Origin: Planctomyces sp. SH-PL62
GTDB taxonomy: Bacteria > Planctomycetota > Planctomycetia > Planctomycetales > Planctomycetaceae
Reading direction: 5' to 3'
DNA: 64,000 nucleotides
Assembly (NCBI GenBank): GCA_945893045.1
Contig: CAMDEA010000010.1
Span: 1-64,000 of the forward strand
Below, in pieces: positions 50,278-63,998 of this stretch (position 1 is its first letter; every line of letters starts with the position of its first letter). The translations under genes were made by a program, and so were the position numbers. The notes under the pieces are model-generated. The model did not search any database. It worked only from the letters and a program-made list of their open reading frames with translations, and had not been told where the DNA came from.

Positions 50278-51297
50278 TCAAGGATCGGCTCGCGAGAACG
50301 ACAGGGTGATGGACTTTGAAATGCGGCCATCGCCGGTCAAGTTCATCGGGACCGTCGAGGATTTCTTGGGCTTCGCTCGGCCCCCTTGTTCTTCGGTCAG
50401 GAAGTCGATTTGTACTTCCGTGCCGCGGCCGTCGCCGTTGTCGTCGAGCAATGGGTGCTCGGTCGCCAGAAACTCTCGTTCCAGGTAAGACTGCGCGAGA
50501 TTGCGGGCGACGGTGACGTACAAATCAAACAGCGAGATCGTGCCGTCCTGGTCGATGTCGAACTCCTTCGCTTCGGGGGGCGAGGAGAGCACACGAGCGA
50601 GTTCGTGAGGGAATTCGGTCTCGTTGGTTTCCCAGTCGGTTTCGGTGGCGCTGATGACGACTCGGCCTTTGGCGGACAGAGGTTTGACGTAGTAACCGCT
50701 CGTCGGCGTGGTGATGCAGAAGACTTGTTCGCGCGCCGTCAGATCGGCAAACAGCTTGGCGAATTCTGTTTGTTGAATGTCCGGCCCCGGCAGGTTCAGC
50801 CACGAGTGCTTGCCGTCGTAATGACTGTGACCCACGACGATCACCCACAGCGTATCGTTCGGCTGCAGCTTCGCGCCCAGAGCCGTGACGCTCTTTTCGA
50901 GTTCCTCGCGCGTCGCTCGGCCGGCAGACTTGATGATGTCCGTGTCCGAGTCGATCGGCTCATCACCGAAGAGCACCTGCACGTCGGCGAATCCGAGCCG
51001 CTTGGAAAGTCCCTCGTGCAGCTTGGTCATGGTGTCGGAATACAGCTTGTGATGGGCCGCATCGCCGCTGAGTCCACAAACGAGGAGCGCGCGCTTCGTG
51101 CCGGCGGTGCGTTCGGAACCGTTCGGTGGTTCGGTCGCGAAAGCCAATCCCGTCAGCGTGAACAACCACGAAACTGCAACGACACTCACCCGATGCGCAA
51201 GTGAGGGATCAAAAACAATCACCAACCTAAACAACCCCTCGCTTACGCATCGGGTTAGTTTTGAAACTGCCACTCGTACTACGCGATGCATTGTCAT
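50278..51297 (-). CDS. Secreted caspase-fold protein, probable pseudopeptidase
   Basis: A 339-residue exported protein. A palindromic element splits the signal peptide; removing it gives HRVVRVAVSWLFTLTGLAFA, an ordinary signal. The mature part has a caspase/legumain-like fold: RALLVCGLSGDAAHHKLY, a His in VVGHSHYDGK (H157) and FNLPGPDIQ-like WLNLPGPDIQ. Where these peptidases carry the catalytic Cys, this one reads ITTPTSGYYVKP, so catalysis is doubtful. A calcium-binding-like loop DIDQDGTISLFDLY (about 246-259) and DDNGDGRGTE follow. The start overlaps the stop of the upstream paralogue gene (ATGA), so the two are translationally coupled. Last gene of the BlaI/M56 operon. Confidence 0.7.
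   Translation of the reverse strand: MTMHRVVRVAVSKLTRCVSEGLFRLVIVFDPSLAHRVSVVAVSWLFTLTGLAFATEPPNGSERTAGTKRALLVCGLSGDAAHHKLYSDTMTKLHEGLSKRLGFADVQVLFGDEPIDSDTDIIKSAGRATREELEKSVTALGAKLQPNDTLWVIVVGHSHYDGKHSWLNLPGPDIQQTEFAKLFADLTAREQVFCITTPTSGYYVKPLSAKGRVVISATETDWETNETEFPHELARVLSSPPEAKEFDIDQDGTISLFDLYVTVARNLAQSYLEREFLATEHPLLDDNGDGRGTEVQIDFLTEEQGGRAKPKKSSTVPMNLTGDGRISKSITLSFSRADP
51178..51262. repeat. Palindromic element inside a signal peptide (A)
   Basis: An 85-base element with arms ACTCACCCGATGCGCAAGTG and CTCGCTTACGCATCGGGTTA (about 20 of 23 pairs match). An exact 8-base direct repeat GAAACTGC flanks it at 51170-51177 and 51263-51270. Repeat plus element is 93 bases, exactly 31 codons. Same family as the element at 59140-59231. 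Confidence 0.95.
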
Positions 51298-52145
51298 TCG
51301 CCTTTCTTGGGCACATCGTCGAGAACGCTCAGATCCAACGGGCGGCCCAGAGAGCGGTGGGTGGATCGCGGATCGTTGTTGGCCGGGAAGCGGTCGGCGT
51401 GCCAGACGACGGTGTCTTTGTGGCGTGCCTCAAGCTCTCCGGAGGTTCGGCGAACGAACGCGAATTGCCATTCGAAGCCGGCTCCCTTTTTGAACGCTTC
51501 GAGGAGCAGCAACGATTCCGGATCGGTCCCTTGCACGAACGCGAACACGGCACCGTCGAGCACATCGCTCCGTTTGCTGTCGTAGCGATAGAGCGGTTGC
51601 GGCAACAACCGCAGCTCTTCGCGGTCGCTCTTGTTGGCTTTCCAACCGAGCATCGTCGAAGAGAATTGGCTCGCCAGCGTCTTCATCTGCCGCAACCGCG
51701 CGACGGGCATCTCGGCCGGAGCGTCGGCGGCGAGGATCGACTGAAACTGCACGCCGATCTTTTCAGGACTCCAGACGACCACGCCGTCCCGCTTTGCCAG
51801 CAATGTGCCTCGCGACAACGAATCGAATTCGTGAATGAGCGACTTCTCCCACGGATAAACACAGCAGACCGCTTCCGGACGGCCATCCGCGAGATACAGC
51901 ACCGTCATTCCGTCTTCGGACCCGCGTGTGTTGTTCGTCCAACGCAGAACCACCTTCGCGGTCATCGGTGTCGCCGACCGCTCGTTCGCGAACAGTTCAT
52001 CCCACGCGAGCGACTCGTCCATCAGCTTCCGCAACGGCGATGCGGTTTTCTTCGCAGCGGTGTCTGCAGACGTCTTGGCCGCCTCTTGTGCGAGACCACT
52101 GGCCGCGCCGATCAGCGTGAGCATCACCAGAGCGATGAACTTCAT
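51294..52145 (-). CDS. Secreted paralogue P1 of a five-member family
   Basis: A 283-residue exported protein, signal peptide MKFIALVMLTLIGAASGLAQ. It shares a set of motifs with four other proteins in this window: a VLRWTNNTRGSEDG strand, an aromatic-rich HEFDSLS, a late RLRQMKTLASQF, EELRLLPQPLYRYD and FVQGTDPESLLLLEAF. No known family or catalytic motif was recognised. Its start overlaps the stop of P2 by four bases and its stop overlaps the caspase-fold gene start, so P2, P1 and the caspase-fold gene are coupled. The C terminus is longer and Asp/Arg-rich. Confidence 0.7.
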   Translation of the reverse strand: MKFIALVMLTLIGAASGLAQEAAKTSADTAAKKTASPLRKLMDESLAWDELFANERSATPMTAKVVLRWTNNTRGSEDGMTVLYLADGRPEAVCCVYPWEKSLIHEFDSLSRGTLLAKRDGVVVWSPEKIGVQFQSILAADAPAEMPVARLRQMKTLASQFSSTMLGWKANKSDREELRLLPQPLYRYDSKRSDVLDGAVFAFVQGTDPESLLLLEAFKKGAGFEWQFAFVRRTSGELEARHKDTVVWHADRFPANNDPRSTHRSLGRPLDLSVLDDVPKKGE

Positions 52146-52966
52146 GGCGTCGGTTCCTTGGATTTCGGGAGTCGTTCTTGCGTGACCGATTCCGCCCAAT
52201 ACGAACTGTTCTGGCTCGCCGACAATTCTTTGGCGGTCCAAACCTCTTTGTCATCGAGCCGCAGCTTGAGCGCGTAGTCGGTGAAGTTGGCCGCCGCGTA
52301 GTGCCAAACGAATTCGTCGTTCAACTTCTGAGCTTCCACCGCGAGGATCAATTCGGGGTCCGTCCCCTGACAAAAGACGCTGAGACTGCCGCCGATCACC
52401 GTCGTGGGTGGCTCGATGTCGAACTGATAGATCGGTTTGGCGAGCAGCCGCAGCTCCCAGCGACCGCCTTTGTGGTCGATGCTCTCGGCCTGAAAGCGGC
52501 GCATGATCTCGCGAGCCTGACGCTGCCGGCCCGTCGCGGTCTTGTCCGCGCGCGGTGCGTTGGGGACCGCCTGCCACTTCAATCCAGCGATGGGCGAGCG
52601 CCAATGCAACTTGCTTCGCCAATGAGCCTCGATCGGCTGGTTCGCGAGCGAATGAAACTCATGCACGACGGATCGCAAATCGTCTTGAACCGTGAAGGCG
52701 AACGTCGTCCCCAGCACCGCTGGCCGCTTGTCACGATCCACCCACAAATAGACCGCGCCGATGTCATCGCCGCGCACCGGCTGACTGTGACGAAACACCG
52801 CCTGCGGCAGCATCGTGAACTTGTCATCCGCCCCGTTCTCCGGGTGAATGACGTAATCCTGAGCATGTTGCAGGCTGACCTTGAGCCACGCCTCAACCAG
52901 CTCCTTGTCGCGTGGGATCGGATCGGCTCCGGGAATCAACAGGATCGTAAGCAAGAAGGCGTTCAT
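52142..52966 (-). CDS. Secreted paralogue P2
   Basis: A 274-residue protein. The N terminus NAFLLTILLIPGADPIP is a short signal-like stretch. It shares the family signature VVHEFHSLA, RWELRLLAKPIYQFD and FCQGTDPELILAVEAQ, and ends in a Lys/Ser/Pro-rich tail. ATG 52966 is preferred; the frame runs 19 codons further upstream without a signal. Its four-base overlap with P1 shows coupling; the gap to P3 is 53 bases. Function unknown. Confidence 0.68.
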   Translation of the reverse strand: MNAFLLTILLIPGADPIPRDKELVEAWLKVSLQHAQDYVIHPENGADDKFTMLPQAVFRHSQPVRGDDIGAVYLWVDRDKRPAVLGTTFAFTVQDDLRSVVHEFHSLANQPIEAHWRSKLHWRSPIAGLKWQAVPNAPRADKTATGRQRQAREIMRRFQAESIDHKGGRWELRLLAKPIYQFDIEPPTTVIGGSLSVFCQGTDPELILAVEAQKLNDEFVWHYAAANFTDYALKLRLDDKEVWTAKELSASQNSSYWAESVTQERLPKSKEPTP

Positions 52967-58241: not shown

Positions 58242-61200
58242 TCACTTCACTTTCATGATCTTCGTTGCGCGGATCGACATGTTCTTGAGGAGGAATTCCG
58301 CTCCGGCGGCTTGATCGCTCGCGTCGGCTTGAATGGCGATGTAGTGCGTGTCGCCAGTTCCGATCGGTCGGTGTGCGACAAGCCGGAAATTGTCGGAACC
58401 GGTCTCCGCCGTGAGGCAGTAGAGAGCGGCACCGCGACGCACGAGTCGCATCCGGCCCGACTCGGCGAAGTCCGTCAGCGATTCCGACGAGTAGAGGTAC
58501 TCTCCCTGCGGCGATCGACTCTGCGACATCGCCGTCGTCCCCTTGGACTTCTCCCACTGTCGGGCTTCGATCCCGGATTCGCGTTTGCCATCCACATTCA
58601 CTTTGAAGCTCAGGCCCGATCCCCAAGTGCCGCTGGGTGGCGCTGTCTTCAAGCCCGCGTACTCGATCGTCGCGATGAAGTCACCGGACAGACGCAGCTT
58701 CGTATGCACTCCCGCCGTCTGCGGTTTCGCTTCTCCGGCGGTGAGGAAGAATCGCAAGCCATCGGACGTCGATTGAATACGCTTCGCAGCGGCGGCGGCA
58801 TCCCAGTGATAACTGAATTGAGTCGTGTCGAACTTCGAGCGTGTGAAGTCGAAGCTCGCCGTGTCTGGCAGTTCCGCATCGGGAATCTCGGTCATCTTCC
58901 GCGAACTGGCCGCAAGCTCTTGTTGTTTGATCGGCGGCAACGTCTTCGGCCAGTCGCCGCGATAACGGACGTTGCGAACTCGGACGTCGGAACCGTTGGC
59001 GTAGTGGAACAGGCCGAAGTGCCGCAGGTTGGTCGGCTCGATGTCGCGAGTGAAGACGATGTCGCCGTTGAGTTCGATCGTCAACGTGTCTCCTTTCGTG
59101 GTGAACTTGATCGCGTTCCACTCGCGCGGCTTGAGCGATGTAACCCGACGCGTCAGCGAGGGCGAGCGCTCCGCATCACTTTCATCCGTGAGTTTTCCGG
59201 AGCGCTCGCCCTCGCTGACGCGTCGGGTTACTTGGTGAGGATCGATATTGCCCGCCATCAAGCCGGTGCGATCCCAACGGCCGTCGGTCAGCCAGTGAAT
59301 CTTCACGCCGTCCGGTTCGATCAAGCAGACCATGCGATCGAGTGCCGGATGCACGAGCGACTGGCCCTTCACCGTTCGTTTCGGCGCGTTCGCCCCGAGG
59401 TACGAAAATTGGCTGCTGGCCGGAGCGGCGAGTTTCACTTCGGGGTCATAGTAAAACTCGTAACGGATCTCGCCGTCTTCGAGCATCGGGCGGTGATAGC
59501 GGATGATGTTCTCGACCTTCCGCCGATCGCGGCTTGGATTCGCGTCGAGCATCTGTGGCGACGTCAGCACTCCGTCATCGAGCTGCCACTCAAACGATGA
59601 TTTCCCTGCGTCGGTGGCGAAGTAATCGGTCATCCAGCTTTTGAGATCAGACTGCGCGAGCAGATCGAGCTCCTTCGGGATGAGCGGCTCACCAGTGATG
59701 ACAATGTCGCGAACGGCTCGCGACGCATAGACCGGCATCCCAACGACCGCCAGCCACGGATCGGGCTGTTCGGGCAGCGCCTCTTCGTAGAGGTTTTGCC
59801 CGTTGACGAAGCTCGTGAAGCGTCCGTCTTTCACGATCACTTTGTAGTCATGCCATTGCAGCACCTTCGGCGTAATCGGCTTCGCAATCGGCAATTCGAC
59901 GATGGGAGGCCGCACATGCAACACTTTCACTTCGTTGTGCGTGTACTTGAGCGCGTTCGCGATTCCCGACACCATCAGCATCGACTCGCGCCAATCAAAG
60001 TGTGACAGGCGGCAACTGACCTCGTAGTTGCCGAGCAGCGGCGATTGAAAGTACGCGCCGTCGAATTCGTGCCCGCCGCGCTGTGCGATCTCACCCGCGA
60101 CGACATCGAACGACGCAATCGGATAACCCTCGCCGCGCGACTTCGCCGTCGGCTGCGAGACCGTTCGCCATTGACTGGTTTTCGGCTGCGAGCCGAACTC
60201 CTCGGGAACGCCGCCGTAAATCAGAGAAAGCGCCTGACCGTGAAGCTGTCGCACGAAGCGAGCGAACTCCGGCGTCCCCGGCTTGCTCGCTTGCAGTTGT
60301 CTTCCCTTGATGCGATCGAGCAACTCAAACGCGGCATCGCGAGTCGTTGGATGCTGAATCGCGAGACTCGCCAACGCGACGTCGCCCCAGCGAGCGTACT
60401 GCGGACCTTCTTGATTGGTGACGAGCTGATGACACTCCCAAACATTAGCCAGCGCTTCGTCAGGCTGATCTTGCAGCAGCGCGATGATGCCCAGCAGCGC
60501 CGCCCGCCCGCGAGCCATCTCCGGCGAACTGGCCGCCGGATGCTTGAGCACTTCTTCTTTGAGTTCGTCGAGCCGATCCAACTCGGCCGCCGCGAGCACC
60601 AGCAAGATCGCGGGACAAACAAAGTTTCCGCCAGTTTGCACGAGCCGCTGATCAACCGCTTGTCGGGCTTCCGCCGTCGCCACATCAATTGGATGCTCGT
60701 TGAGCACGGGCGGAGCCGGGTGCGTCGGCGTGAAGGCTCCCGACATTCGCAGCAGGTCGCTCGACTCGTTCGGCATGACCCAGCGTCGCAGGAACTGGAA
60801 TCGCTCCGGCGTCTCAAGCTTCACCGCGCGGCGATAGACCGCGAAGGCATTGTCCGAGAAGTATTGCTCTCCGATCACATGCGTCAGGAAGCGCGAGTTC
60901 GGTAGCGGCTCGATCGGCGTCGGCGCTTCGATCGCGGCGCGCACTTCGTCGAACGTCTTCGGCCAATCTCCCGTCAGCACGACGTTACGAACTCGCAGTT
61001 CCGTTTGAGCGGCATCGTGGAATAATCCGATCCGCCGTGAGTTCGTCGCCACGATGTTTTCCGTGACGACCTCCTGGCCGTTGAGTTCAATCGCGAGCAA
61101 CCCGCCGTTCAACGACATCGCGACGGTGTTCCAGCCGTCTTTCAATTCCCCCGCGCAAGCACGACGCGCCAGCGAGTGGTTTGTTTTCGTGTCGTTCGCG

Positions 61201-63998
61201 CCGACAGAGTGAACAACGTCTCGACCACTCGCTGGCGCGTCGTGCTTGTTTCCAAACTCGCCCAGTGCATACACCACATCGCCGAACGTCGGATGCGCGG
61301 TCGCCTTGTCGGCCTCATGGAAGAACTCGTAGCGCAGCGTTTCTCCGTCTCGCAGCGGTCGCTGATACGACAGCCACGACGGCGACTCGTCCGCCCAAAA
61401 ACTGTTGCGTCGAGCGGACCGCAGCTCGCCATCTACGAGCCTCCAATCGGTTTGGCTTTGACCGACTTCGACGGGTTCGCCCTCCATCGTCCCGTCGTCT
61501 TCCACGATCGTCGAGTACGTCTGATTGTTCTGCGTCACCTTCACTTGGATGTATCGCCGACTTCGCAGCGCATCGGGCTTTGATTCGCCGCAGTACGACG
61601 CGACCCAACCTCGCAGCCGAGCATCGCTCAACAACGCCACTTCGCGCGGGATCGTGGGCGAGCCGGTGATTCGCAGGTTGCGATACGTCGGCGTGAAGCC
61701 CACCTTTCCACCGAGCGTGAGCCACGGTGCCGCAGTCCCGGCCTGATCTTCAAGGACCAATTGACCATTCGCAAAGTGACGCACCGTGTTGCCACCGACT
61801 TGGATCGTGTACCGGTTCCACGGCAAACGATTCAGCAGGTTCGTCATCTTGGGACTGTTCTCGTAGCCTGAACCACCTTTGCCCGTGATGTAGACCGCAT
61901 CGTTGTAGGCATAGATTTGACACGACACACCGCCGTAGCCCGTCAGCCCTTCGGTCCAACCTCCTTCGCGGCCTTCGACAGTCAGTTCAAACGATCCGGT
62001 CAGCGGCACGGTGAAGCACAAATCGGATTCGGCACCGTTCGAGACGTGCGACAAATAACTTTCATGAGCAAACCACGTCGGCGGCAACGCACCCATCATG
62101 CGTTCGCTGGCCGTGGCGAAATTGATGGCGTCCCACAGCTTGGGCCGCACTTTCAACCAGTCGGTGTGAACCGGTGAGCCACGAACGTCCGCGCGTTGCT
62201 TGCTCAGTTCTTCGGTCAAACGCGGAGTCGCCGGACCACTCGTCAGTCGCAATCGCATCAGCTCGATGAGCGCCATGCGGAAGTGATCGCGGATGCGAGC
62301 CGCTTGCGTGCGCTGCCCGTGCTCGATGAGCTGCTTCATCAATAACTCTGCGACTTCACGCCATTCGGGATGCAGCGCCGCTTCGACCGCGACGACATAG
62401 GTGTCGAGCGGCGGTTGCGGCTTGTTCGCCATCTCCCACGGCGGCACTTCCTTCGTGGTGACTGCCAATAGCTCGGCCAATCGCGCCGGGACTTCGCTGG
62501 CCGCCGCCCCTTTCGTCGAGCCGTCGCGCATCACGAGTGCGAGCGTTCGCAACGATTTCACGGATGCGGATTGAACGGGGAACTCAGCCAGCTCGCGAAT
62601 CAGTTCGTCCAACTGGCCGAGTTCCCGCGCGGTGGCGACCAACTCCCAGTTCGTGCTGTAAACATCCAGCAATAACCCCGATCCCAAATTGGGGAACAAT
62701 TCGGGCGACACGAAATCGACCACCGAGCGCACCACCGTTTGATCGCCGCTGGGCAACGCCCACTTCCGCAAGAACTCATACCGTTCCGCCGGCGCGAGCT
62801 TCCGCAGTTCACGAGCCGTTCGAACGGCGAGGTTGAACGTGTTGAATCCGGTGCCGTACCGCGCGGCTCGCGGATCAATGGCAGCCGTGAGAAGTTCGAG
62901 ACCTTCCGCGATCGCTCCGGTCTCCAGCAATGCTCCCGCAACTTGCTGATTGCGAACGTGATTCAAGTAAACCGCATAGTCGGCACCGAACCGTTGCGCA
63001 TTGAGCGGCTTTGTGAGCACGGCCAGCGCACAGCGTTTCGCATCCTCAGATCGGCCCGACTTCGCGTGAAGCTCCGCGGCTCGCACCAGGAACCACGACG
63101 CGTTCACTCGGAAGTTTGACTCCGCGGGCAACGCCGACGCTCGTTCGGCGATGGCTTCGAGCAACGCGATCGCCGACTTCTCCGATTTCGGCTCATGCAA
63201 CCCGGCAGAGATCGCATGACAGAGATAATCAAGCTGCTGCTCGGTCGCCGATTTGACGTCGCCAATCAGCGTCTTGAGCCACTTGTTCGCCGTGTCCGCG
63301 TCCTTTTCAGCAATCGCCAGTTGCACCGCGATGACTCGCGCGATTGCCTGATCGAACCTCGCGACCGCTGGTGCCGGCGTTGTTGCGGTTGGGGCTGTCT
63401 TATCCGTTTGAGCTGCGGGCTTCTCATCCTTCGGAGCTTCTTTGGACGGTCCACCATCCAACGCGGGCTGCAATCGCTTCTTCAATTCCTCCGTCTGCTT
63501 GGCGAGCACCGACCACCGAACCAACTCGGCTCCCACGCTTTCCGGCGCTGGCAAGCGAAACTCTCGCCGATTCATGATGTTGATGTCGTAAGTCAACTGC
63601 GACTGAATCGGAAACGCGAAGACGCGGCCCGCCGGCTTCCGAGGCACAACAACGTCTCGCAAGATCTCCACGACGTCACCAGCCGGAGCGTTCTTTTCGT
63701 TCCACAGCTTCACCAACCGCAGCAACGTCGGTCCCACAAACTGCGCATCAGCGTCGTTGAACAGCTCCTTGCCGCCACGCTCCTTGAACGCCTCACGAGC
63801 CAACTTCAGCGACTCTTCGATCTCCCCTTTCTCCGCCGCTTGAGTCGCCTGCTGCAACTGCTGATGTCCCTGAAACACAGCCTGCGCAGGTTGCTGAGAC
63901 TTTCCTCCCAAGAGACCGCGCAGGAAGTCAAACTGAGCCGACGCCGACTGCGGAGAAGACAAGCAGCAAGTGGCGATCAGAAACGCCATCAAACACAA
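58242..63998 (-). CDS. Giant DUF1583-like secreted protein (5' end uncertain)
   Basis: About 1918 residues; the frame reaches the window edge, so the start may lie outside (ATG 63989 is the first inside). A hydrophobic N terminus (MAFLIATCCLSSPQSASAQ) suggests a signal peptide. Residues 30-620 are helical, TPR-like. Two large beta domains follow, each ending in FGLFHYANGSDVRVRNVRY-type sequence plus GDWPKTL; a third partial one closes the protein. This matches the planctomycete DUF1581/DUF1583 kind. Two palindromic elements (59140-59231 and 61156-61248) sit at equivalent positions of the two domains. It stops five bases before P5. Function unknown. Confidence 0.7.
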   Translation of the reverse strand: MCLMAFLIATCCLSSPQSASAQFDFLRGLLGGKSQQPAQAVFQGHQQLQQATQAAEKGEIEESLKLAREAFKERGGKELFNDADAQFVGPTLLRLVKLWNEKNAPAGDVVEILRDVVVPRKPAGRVFAFPIQSQLTYDINIMNRREFRLPAPESVGAELVRWSVLAKQTEELKKRLQPALDGGPSKEAPKDEKPAAQTDKTAPTATTPAPAVARFDQAIARVIAVQLAIAEKDADTANKWLKTLIGDVKSATEQQLDYLCHAISAGLHEPKSEKSAIALLEAIAERASALPAESNFRVNASWFLVRAAELHAKSGRSEDAKRCALAVLTKPLNAQRFGADYAVYLNHVRNQQVAGALLETGAIAEGLELLTAAIDPRAARYGTGFNTFNLAVRTARELRKLAPAERYEFLRKWALPSGDQTVVRSVVDFVSPELFPNLGSGLLLDVYSTNWELVATARELGQLDELIRELAEFPVQSASVKSLRTLALVMRDGSTKGAAASEVPARLAELLAVTTKEVPPWEMANKPQPPLDTYVVAVEAALHPEWREVAELLMKQLIEHGQRTQAARIRDHFRMALIELMRLRLTSGPATPRLTEELSKQRADVRGSPVHTDWLKVRPKLWDAINFATASERMMGALPPTWFAHESYLSHVSNGAESDLCFTVPLTGSFELTVEGREGGWTEGLTGYGGVSCQIYAYNDAVYITGKGGSGYENSPKMTNLLNRLPWNRYTIQVGGNTVRHFANGQLVLEDQAGTAAPWLTLGGKVGFTPTYRNLRITGSPTIPREVALLSDARLRGWVASYCGESKPDALRSRRYIQVKVTQNNQTYSTIVEDDGTMEGEPVEVGQSQTDWRLVDGELRSARRNSFWADESPSWLSYQRPLRDGETLRYEFFHEADKATAHPTFGDVVYALGEFGNKHDAPASGRDVVHSVGANDTKTNHSLARRACAGELKDGWNTVAMSLNGGLLAIELNGQEVVTENIVATNSRRIGLFHDAAQTELRVRNVVLTGDWPKTFDEVRAAIEAPTPIEPLPNSRFLTHVIGEQYFSDNAFAVYRRAVKLETPERFQFLRRWVMPNESSDLLRMSGAFTPTHPAPPVLNEHPIDVATAEARQAVDQRLVQTGGNFVCPAILLVLAAAELDRLDELKEEVLKHPAASSPEMARGRAALLGIIALLQDQPDEALANVWECHQLVTNQEGPQYARWGDVALASLAIQHPTTRDAAFELLDRIKGRQLQASKPGTPEFARFVRQLHGQALSLIYGGVPEEFGSQPKTSQWRTVSQPTAKSRGEGYPIASFDVVAGEIAQRGGHEFDGAYFQSPLLGNYEVSCRLSHFDWRESMLMVSGIANALKYTHNEVKVLHVRPPIVELPIAKPITPKVLQWHDYKVIVKDGRFTSFVNGQNLYEEALPEQPDPWLAVVGMPVYASRAVRDIVITGEPLIPKELDLLAQSDLKSWMTDYFATDAGKSSFEWQLDDGVLTSPQMLDANPSRDRRKVENIIRYHRPMLEDGEIRYEFYYDPEVKLAAPASSQFSYLGANAPKRTVKGQSLVHPALDRMVCLIEPDGVKIHWLTDGRWDRTGLMAGNIDPHQVTRRVSEGERSGKLTDESDAERSPSLTRRVTSLKPREWNAIKFTTKGDTLTIELNGDIVFTRDIEPTNLRHFGLFHYANGSDVRVRNVRYRGDWPKTLPPIKQQELAASSRKMTEIPDAELPDTASFDFTRSKFDTTQFSYHWDAAAAAKRIQSTSDGLRFFLTAGEAKPQTAGVHTKLRLSGDFIATIEYAGLKTAPPSGTWGSGLSFKVNVDGKRESGIEARQWEKSKGTTAMSQSRSPQGEYLYSSESLTDFAESGRMRLVRRGAALYCLTAETGSDNFRLVAHRPIGTGDTHYIAIQADASDQAAGAEFLLKNMSIRATKIMKVK
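59140..59231. repeat. Palindromic element inside the DUF1583-like CDS (B)
   Basis: Perfect 34-base arms (GTAACCCGACGCGTCAGCGA to GGGCGAGCGCTCCG and complement), loop 24 bases. Translated in frame on the minus strand as VTRRVSEGERSG ... SLTRRVTS. The arm core AACCCGACGCGTCAGCGAGG is a close match to the element at 51178-51262. Confidence 0.95.
61156..61248. repeat. Palindromic element inside the DUF1583-like CDS (C)
   Basis: Perfect 25-base arms (CAAGCACGACGCGCCAGCGA to GTGGT and complement), loop 43 bases. Translated in frame as KHDAPASGRD ... NHSLARRACA. A different sequence family from element B. Confidence 0.93.

Follow-up and report, generated by a model that had tools for sequence, protein, structure and literature searches.

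Class 3 TnpA-Y1 enzymes are described, in the part of the survey that treats them, as occurring mainly in Planctomycetes, Acidobacteria and Proteobacteria, as having atypical flanking hairpins and as being reminiscent of REPtrons, and further experiments on them are said there to be required (PMC6006769). In-frame insertion into a host gene is reported in that same part for the subclass 2.4 enzymes, in their own genes, not for class 3. The GTAG/CGTC REPs and REPINs, in the excerpts of the papers that deal with them, are paired inverted palindromes that are sometimes intragenic, with DnaE2 among the genes concerned, and their RAYT genes are flanked by repeats (PMC3733652, PMC3116915). The same excerpts mention REP families in Rhodopirellula baltica, and REP-tagged DnaE2 is mentioned in other species (PMC3733652). 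Finally, Rickettsia palindromic elements are described as inserting in frame into protein genes (PMC10969869, PMC3733652, relevant passages).

An earlier note on a planctomycete sequence, a window of 64,000 nt (positions 1 to 64,000 of contig CAMDEA010000010.1 of Planctomyces sp. SH-PL62), had described a palindrome inserted into a signal peptide. We find that the palindrome is a REP-like element, of a kind already known, that was inserted there. Its family was absent from the literature listings searched, and no earlier report of this palindrome family in planctomycete genes or signal peptides was among the matches listed.

RESULTS

A hairpin in the signal peptide of a protein with a predicted caspase fold

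The reading frame of the host gene stays open through the hairpin, as the earlier note had it, and the same octamer does stand on both sides of the 85-nt hairpin, with 93 nt from start to start (Table 1). When the two copies were extended to 11-mers, 10 of the 11 letters agreed. The hairpin arms, of 24 nt each, are 88% complementary. Folded as DNA, the 85-nt hairpin reached -19.4 kcal/mol (z -6.06), and the RNA of positions 51163-51300 reached -50.8 kcal/mol (z -4.11); in each case 0 of 200 shuffles were as stable. An Rfam search of positions 50900-51500 gave no match up to E 1. In the host gene, the hairpin is translated as KLTRCVSEGLFRLVIVFDPSLAHRVS.

Table 1. Positions of the features discussed, numbered from the first letter of the window
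Feature	Position	Strand	Basis or remark
REP-like palindromic element, 85 nt by the bounds of the earlier note	51178..51262	-	Ends uncertain by several bases
Hairpin left arm	51184..51207		Arm complementarity
Hairpin right arm	51236..51259		Arm complementarity
GAAACTGC, direct repeat copy 1	51170..51177		Exact repeat
GAAACTGC, direct repeat copy 2	51263..51270		Exact repeat
Host gene, 339 aa, predicted secreted, caspase-like fold (predicted); element in signal-peptide n-region	50278..51297	-	ORF, model, Foldseek
Upstream gene, 4-nt overlap with host gene start (GAATGACAATG)	51294..52241	-	ORFs
Second family element, in frame in DUF1581/DUF1583 gene	59141..59230	-	Hexamer test
Third element, with arms of a sister type (AGCACGACGCGCCAGCGAGTGG) and in frame within the DUF1581/DUF1583 gene	61157..61247	-	Hexamer test
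Long DUF1581/DUF1583 reading frame that contains both of these elements in frame and is open to window end	58245..63998	-	Pfam

Owing to the 4-nt overlap with the upstream gene, the start codon of the host gene lies ahead of the element, and translation begins there. The same overlap of the two genes is found in the homologues G007/L120 and L123.

The host protein had no match in Pfam or NCBIfam at E 1e-3, and we therefore examined its fold with an AlphaFold model and Foldseek. The model has a mean pLDDT of 69.7, with a core at residues 64-276 mostly above 80. Foldseek returned 97 chains at E 1e-3 or better, the best being a yeast metacaspase (E 2.5e-6, TM 0.42/0.53), and it is the core (about 64-276) that matches metacaspases, legumains and MALT1. 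The caspase fold proposed in the earlier note is thus backed as a prediction, by the model and its structural matches. In its mature part, the protein shares 82-86% identity with the four relatives closest to it.

The usual caspase motif is D-x-C-x-S-G. In a 14-sequence alignment of the host family, this place is taken by TTPTSG or similar letters, while the His is invariant; because of this replacement in the alignment, the host protein may be a pseudo-enzyme. The genes at L120 and L127, 82% and 68% identical to the host protein, come from records titled Candidatus Kuenenia stuttgartiensis, titles that are maybe wrong.

The hairpin has many relatives in the genome

We searched the genome that contains the window (7.83 Mb in 251 contigs, 89% complete) with a half-arm pattern, CCCTCGCTNACGCRTCGGGTTA, allowing up to 3 mismatches. 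This gave 413 half-arms, 204 forward and 209 reverse, against 1 and 0 for the reversed control pattern. With up to 2 mismatches, half-arms were present in all 12 genomes of the genus, our own included, at 38 to 382 each. At this threshold 24 of the 59 genomes searched had matches, three of them a single match only, and the control pattern gave 0 across the 59 except for 1 in G009. The palindrome family occurs patchily beyond the genus; 380 half-arms were counted in one genome from another family of the class.

From the stretches around the listed matches (about 0.79 Mb plus short loci, of the 7.83 Mb) we assembled 89 copies, paired by a 4-mismatch pattern; one overlapping pair (L090) was kept and copies less than 60 nt from the end of a stretch were left out. 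The common form of the element is AAA[CG]TAACCCGAAGCGTNAGCGAGGG...CCCTCGCTNACGCTTCGGGTTA[CG]TTT, the core ranging from 56 to 126 nt across the 89 copies, and many copies end AAA[CG]TAACCC...GGGTTA[CG]TTT. The family is like the GTAG/CGTC REPs and REPINs in its paired inverted palindromes, some of them intragenic and one in DnaE2, and in the repeats that flank some transposase genes. It differs from the GTAG/CGTC REPs, as they appear in those excerpts, in that its ends are untagged, most copies beginning GTAACCC or CTAACCC. Compared by their ends, the Rickettsia palindromic elements, as excerpted, also differ from the present family, which has no CGTC tag.

Homologues without the hairpin support insertion in this lineage

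We read homologues of the host gene from two sets, one of 10 loci and another in which 8 of 9 loci were covered. Six sequences were common to both, which left 12 distinct homologues, 48 to 86% identical. Two of these have an ordinary-looking signal peptide without a hairpin at that place, namely, G007 (= L120, L040), which begins MHRVALLITVSWML..., and L123, which begins MNRVALLFTVSWLL.... Their empty-site N-termini, MHRVALLITVSWMLPQTEWAF in G007 (also L120) and MNRVALLFTVSWLLLLTGSADA in L123, both align well. At the thresholds used, a family arm near the start was absent in 11 of the 12 distinct homologues. Because two aligned sites are empty and 11 of 12 homologues have no arm, these alignments make insertion in this lineage well supported, and the in-frame insertion into the signal peptide claimed in the earlier note is borne out at both orthologous sites.

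As for the same segment in other homologues, all but G006 are free of an arm; the N-terminus of G006 has a 14-nt arm remnant (AAACCCGACGCGCA), followed by a palindrome of a second family. Given this remnant, the two empty sites alone would also be compatible with loss elsewhere. The insert in the N-terminus of G006 is in frame and longer than that in the window. Copies of this second palindrome family adjoin Y1 genes in our own and in other genomes. In the G001 homologue (L043 / L124), a repeat-like GGTCAGGGGTCAGGGATTAGAGG...AGATCAGAGATCAGAAGTC directly follows the signal peptide and may be an in-frame repeat of another kind within the same linker.

The hydrophobic core of the window signal peptide, VVAVSWLFTLTGLAFA, is unchanged and lies directly after the insert. 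The insert itself has a net charge of +2 by letter count and adds a second hydrophobic stretch, GLFRLVIVF (9-residue mean 2.36). The suggestion that the segment might weaken export found no indication in hydropathy, the only measure applied, by which the core is intact. We think that the n-region is a permissive place and that export is probably kept, since the core is unchanged and the N-terminus of G006 accommodates an even longer insert in frame.

The flanking octamers are not a family trait

The octamer pair had been read as an exact 8-bp target duplication and as direct evidence of insertion. The pair is exact, while its standing as direct evidence is unproven. Where the window gene strand has GCAGTTTC, the empty sites carry ACTGTTTC, with 6 of 8 letters the same, and so do not hold the single copy of the octamer that had been anticipated. 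Removal of 93 nt from the window gene, that is, of one repeat and the element, was supposed to restore a normal signal peptide; it leaves one codon fewer than both empty sites have. Removal of 90 nt instead leaves MHRVVRVVAVSWLF, a gap-free fit to both empty sites, and therefore no duplication is needed and the left octamer would be part of the insert.

We then compared the 20-nt left and right flanks of the 89 copies, re-pairing them at random for the expectation. An identical stretch of at least 8 nt was found in 2 of 89 copies against 0.15 expected; for at least 6 nt, 5 copies were found where 5.0 were expected. The octamers of the two copies lie at different distances from the core, 8 and 5 nt in the window copy and 5 and 12 nt in L023. 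No fixed duplication offset stood out among the 89 copies, and the DnaE2 copy of our own genome, which is one of them, had no shared flank stretch of 6 or more. The chance of an octamer repeat is about 0.002 for one given copy and about 0.14 for the best of 89, so that, by the re-pairing expectation, the window repeat is improbable for one given copy, whereas the best of 89 copies could well show one by chance. The window copy may owe its GAAACTGC pair to a duplication at insertion or to coincidence; octamer duplication is not a trait of the family. We know of no HuH/Y1 enzymes that make target duplications.

Junctions at other family sites were sought on two syntenic stretches of our own genome (C28 and C24), searched against seven relatives and read in five. 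No clean junction was readable on these stretches, where too much divergence or the presence of other palindromes obscured the exact ends of the insertions. A direct repeat that looks convincing at a single copy can mislead on mechanism unless the other copies of the family are checked as well.

Other copies lie in frame in protein genes

By a hexamer test that had 350 long ORFs as its training set and was uncalibrated on known genes, 12 of the 89 copies were called in frame between coding flanks. The window copy fails this test because the coding part upstream of it is too short, and its in-frame insertion rests on the empty sites; with this copy added to the 12, the family is like the Rickettsia palindromic elements in inserting in frame into protein genes. 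Two of the 12 lie in the DUF1583 gene of the window and 10 in other host reading frames, 9 of which have Pfam matches (PSCyt/PSD, Alpha-E, RND transporter and DnaE2 among them).

The two elements in the DUF1583 gene have different arm types and occupy matching loops, just before 'WN' in both repeats. At the first of these sites, an element is likewise present in G005 and G002, which are identical to each other there, and in G009 and G001, and is absent from G007 and G006. At the second, G007 and G006 likewise have an element, and G005 and G002 have a diverged sequence that resembles a palindrome.

The DnaE2 element is in frame at aa 471-508 of L025:2-3022:- (G000:C166), between the catalytic and finger domains of this error-prone polymerase, which matches NF004225 at 1260 bits (cut-off 939). 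DnaE2 was matched in 9 of the 12 genus genomes, that of G004 being split over two contigs there. The site is empty in G007, G010, G003, G001 and G009 and filled in our own genome, G008 and G002, the flanks of G002 and G008 having been compared by eye only. In G008, the element is split by a palindrome of the second family that is 92% identical to the G006 piece. One further element, L109:9610-9668 (G000:C24), lies in the apparent signal-peptide n-region of a PSCyt1/PSD1 protein; in three relatives, this site has sequence of nearly the same length that aligned poorly.

Some Y1 transposase genes are flanked by family arms

Our transposase search, which covered the Y1 family, found 11 matches in our own genome. 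One of these genes, C8:47233-47697, has arms of a sister type, AGCACGACGCGCCAGCGAGTG, on both sides; among the other ten loci, one had a single weak 4-mismatch arm match and nine had none at up to 4 mismatches. The Y1 genes of G007:C69 and G018:C1:956187 (another genus), whose enzymes are 65% identical, have TAACCCGAAGCG-type arms on both sides, and that of G001:C184 has TAGCCCGACGCG-type arms on both sides. At G009:C1134, there is an arm on one side of the gene and the contig end on the other. The arm type at our own C8 and at G009 is [TCA]AGCACGACGCG. In 8 of 48 Y1 loci from relatives, an arm was detected when up to 3 mismatches were allowed, in some cases far from the gene. Within the genus, the G007 enzyme had relatives in 13 rows, the 13th being a fragment of one of the others, and of the 12 loci scanned, 3 had arms on both sides (G007:C69, our own G000:C8 and G001:C184), 1 had an arm on one side and 8 had none.

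Four aligned arm-flanked enzymes keep NHxH, WW and the Tyr (Y....Q). The first motif is NHVH in 3 of 4 and NHCH in G001, the second is WWAE or WWTE, and the third is YVLEAQ, YVRDVQ or YVLDGQ. The arm-flanked enzymes score above the Pfam Y1_Tnp cut-off and below the NCBIfam cut-offs, and a phmmer search of the PDB with the G007 transposase found no real relative, only one chance-like match (E 0.35). Since they keep NHxH, WW[AT] and Y....Q, these enzymes of our own and related genomes resemble, in sequence, the planctomycete class 3 TnpA-Y1 enzymes, for which the survey excerpt gives NHVH, W then T or A and Y....Q together with palindrome-flanked genes and high-copy palindromes (PMC6006769). The class 3 motif tabulated there, YV[VI][AENY]EQ, is matched by the four enzymes only in its Y....Q frame. 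The class 3 5' foot is given as CnGA; here the letters CCGA occur within two arm types (TAACCCGA and TAGCCCGA) and not in the CACGA type (TAGCACGA).

Because the arm type changes with the enzyme, we propose that arms and enzymes are paired, a correlation over five loci. The arm-flanked enzyme of our own genome carries the sister arm type, not that of the window. In the excerpt of PMC3733652, CGTC elements seem to be without a dedicated transposase, whereas a candidate exists here.

DISCUSSION

With a probability of about 0.78, we take the window segment to be a non-autonomous, high-copy REP-like element that was inserted in this lineage, was probably moved by a class 3 Y1 enzyme and is tolerated in the n-region. 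The family probably moves as single-stranded hairpin DNA by means of class 3 Y1 transposases (HuH enzymes with a single catalytic tyrosine) encoded elsewhere, and one of its copies entered the start of the host gene in this lineage. Because the arms lack stops in some frames, an insert of suitable length adds a peptide such as LTRxVSEG...PSLxxRVS and causes no truncation. Here, about 30 residues are added ahead of the intact hydrophobic core, and export would probably be kept. A longer n-region and an untouched core may be why the element is tolerated.

The earlier note implied a classical MITE, whose DDE transposase would leave target duplications of 8 bp. Such an element would account for the exact octamer around the window copy, for the inverted terminal arms and for the excess of flank octamers over expectation. 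The bases inserted beyond the window core also exceed those from the usual family ends, and because a HuH mechanism predicts no target duplication, both these bases and the octamers count against such a mechanism. However, the general target duplication of a DDE-type MITE is not seen among the 89 copies, in which shared stretches of at least 6 nt are at chance and the two octamers stand at different offsets; the DnaE2 copy of our own genome is without such a stretch, and arms surround Y1 genes at several loci. On a transposase search that covered the Y1 family, we regard a MITE as improbable.

The same REP-like element could instead weaken or control the gene by its insertion, through a hairpin in the mRNA or through GLFRLVIVF. 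The stable RNA fold soon after the start and the second hydrophobic stretch are consistent with such an effect, which we nevertheless think unlikely, given that the gene is open, its mature part is well matched in the closest relatives, the original hydrophobic core is intact and the same N-terminus in G006 holds a longer in-frame insert. That nothing was inserted, the hairpin being old and lost elsewhere or the palindrome being due to chance, is hardly credible: the arm remnant in the same N-terminus of G006 would fit an old hairpin, whereas the arm is absent in nearly all distinct homologues, the two alignable ones are empty, and arms recur hundreds of times in our own genome.

Insertion of a REP-like element, probably by a class 3 enzyme, thus places the window copy among mobile hairpins of a known kind, for which both an empty site and a likely transposase have been found here. 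The filled host gene and its empty homologues offer a natural comparison for studying the effect of a mobile palindrome within a signal peptide. The planctomycete palindromes are tied to candidate class 3 enzymes, and a set of gene loci, DnaE2 among them, is now available for comparing in-frame insertion across species.

Tentatively, and with rather more doubt than conviction, we suggest that class 3 Y1 palindromes, with arms that are readable in frame, may be a planctomycete counterpart of the Rickettsia palindromic elements, one with a transposase, that repeatedly lengthens the same exposed places of proteins. If so, these places would be signal-peptide n-regions, the linker before the finger domain of DnaE2 and the loop before 'WN' in DUF1583 repeats, and mobile hairpins would be a standing source of in-frame protein insertions in the genus.
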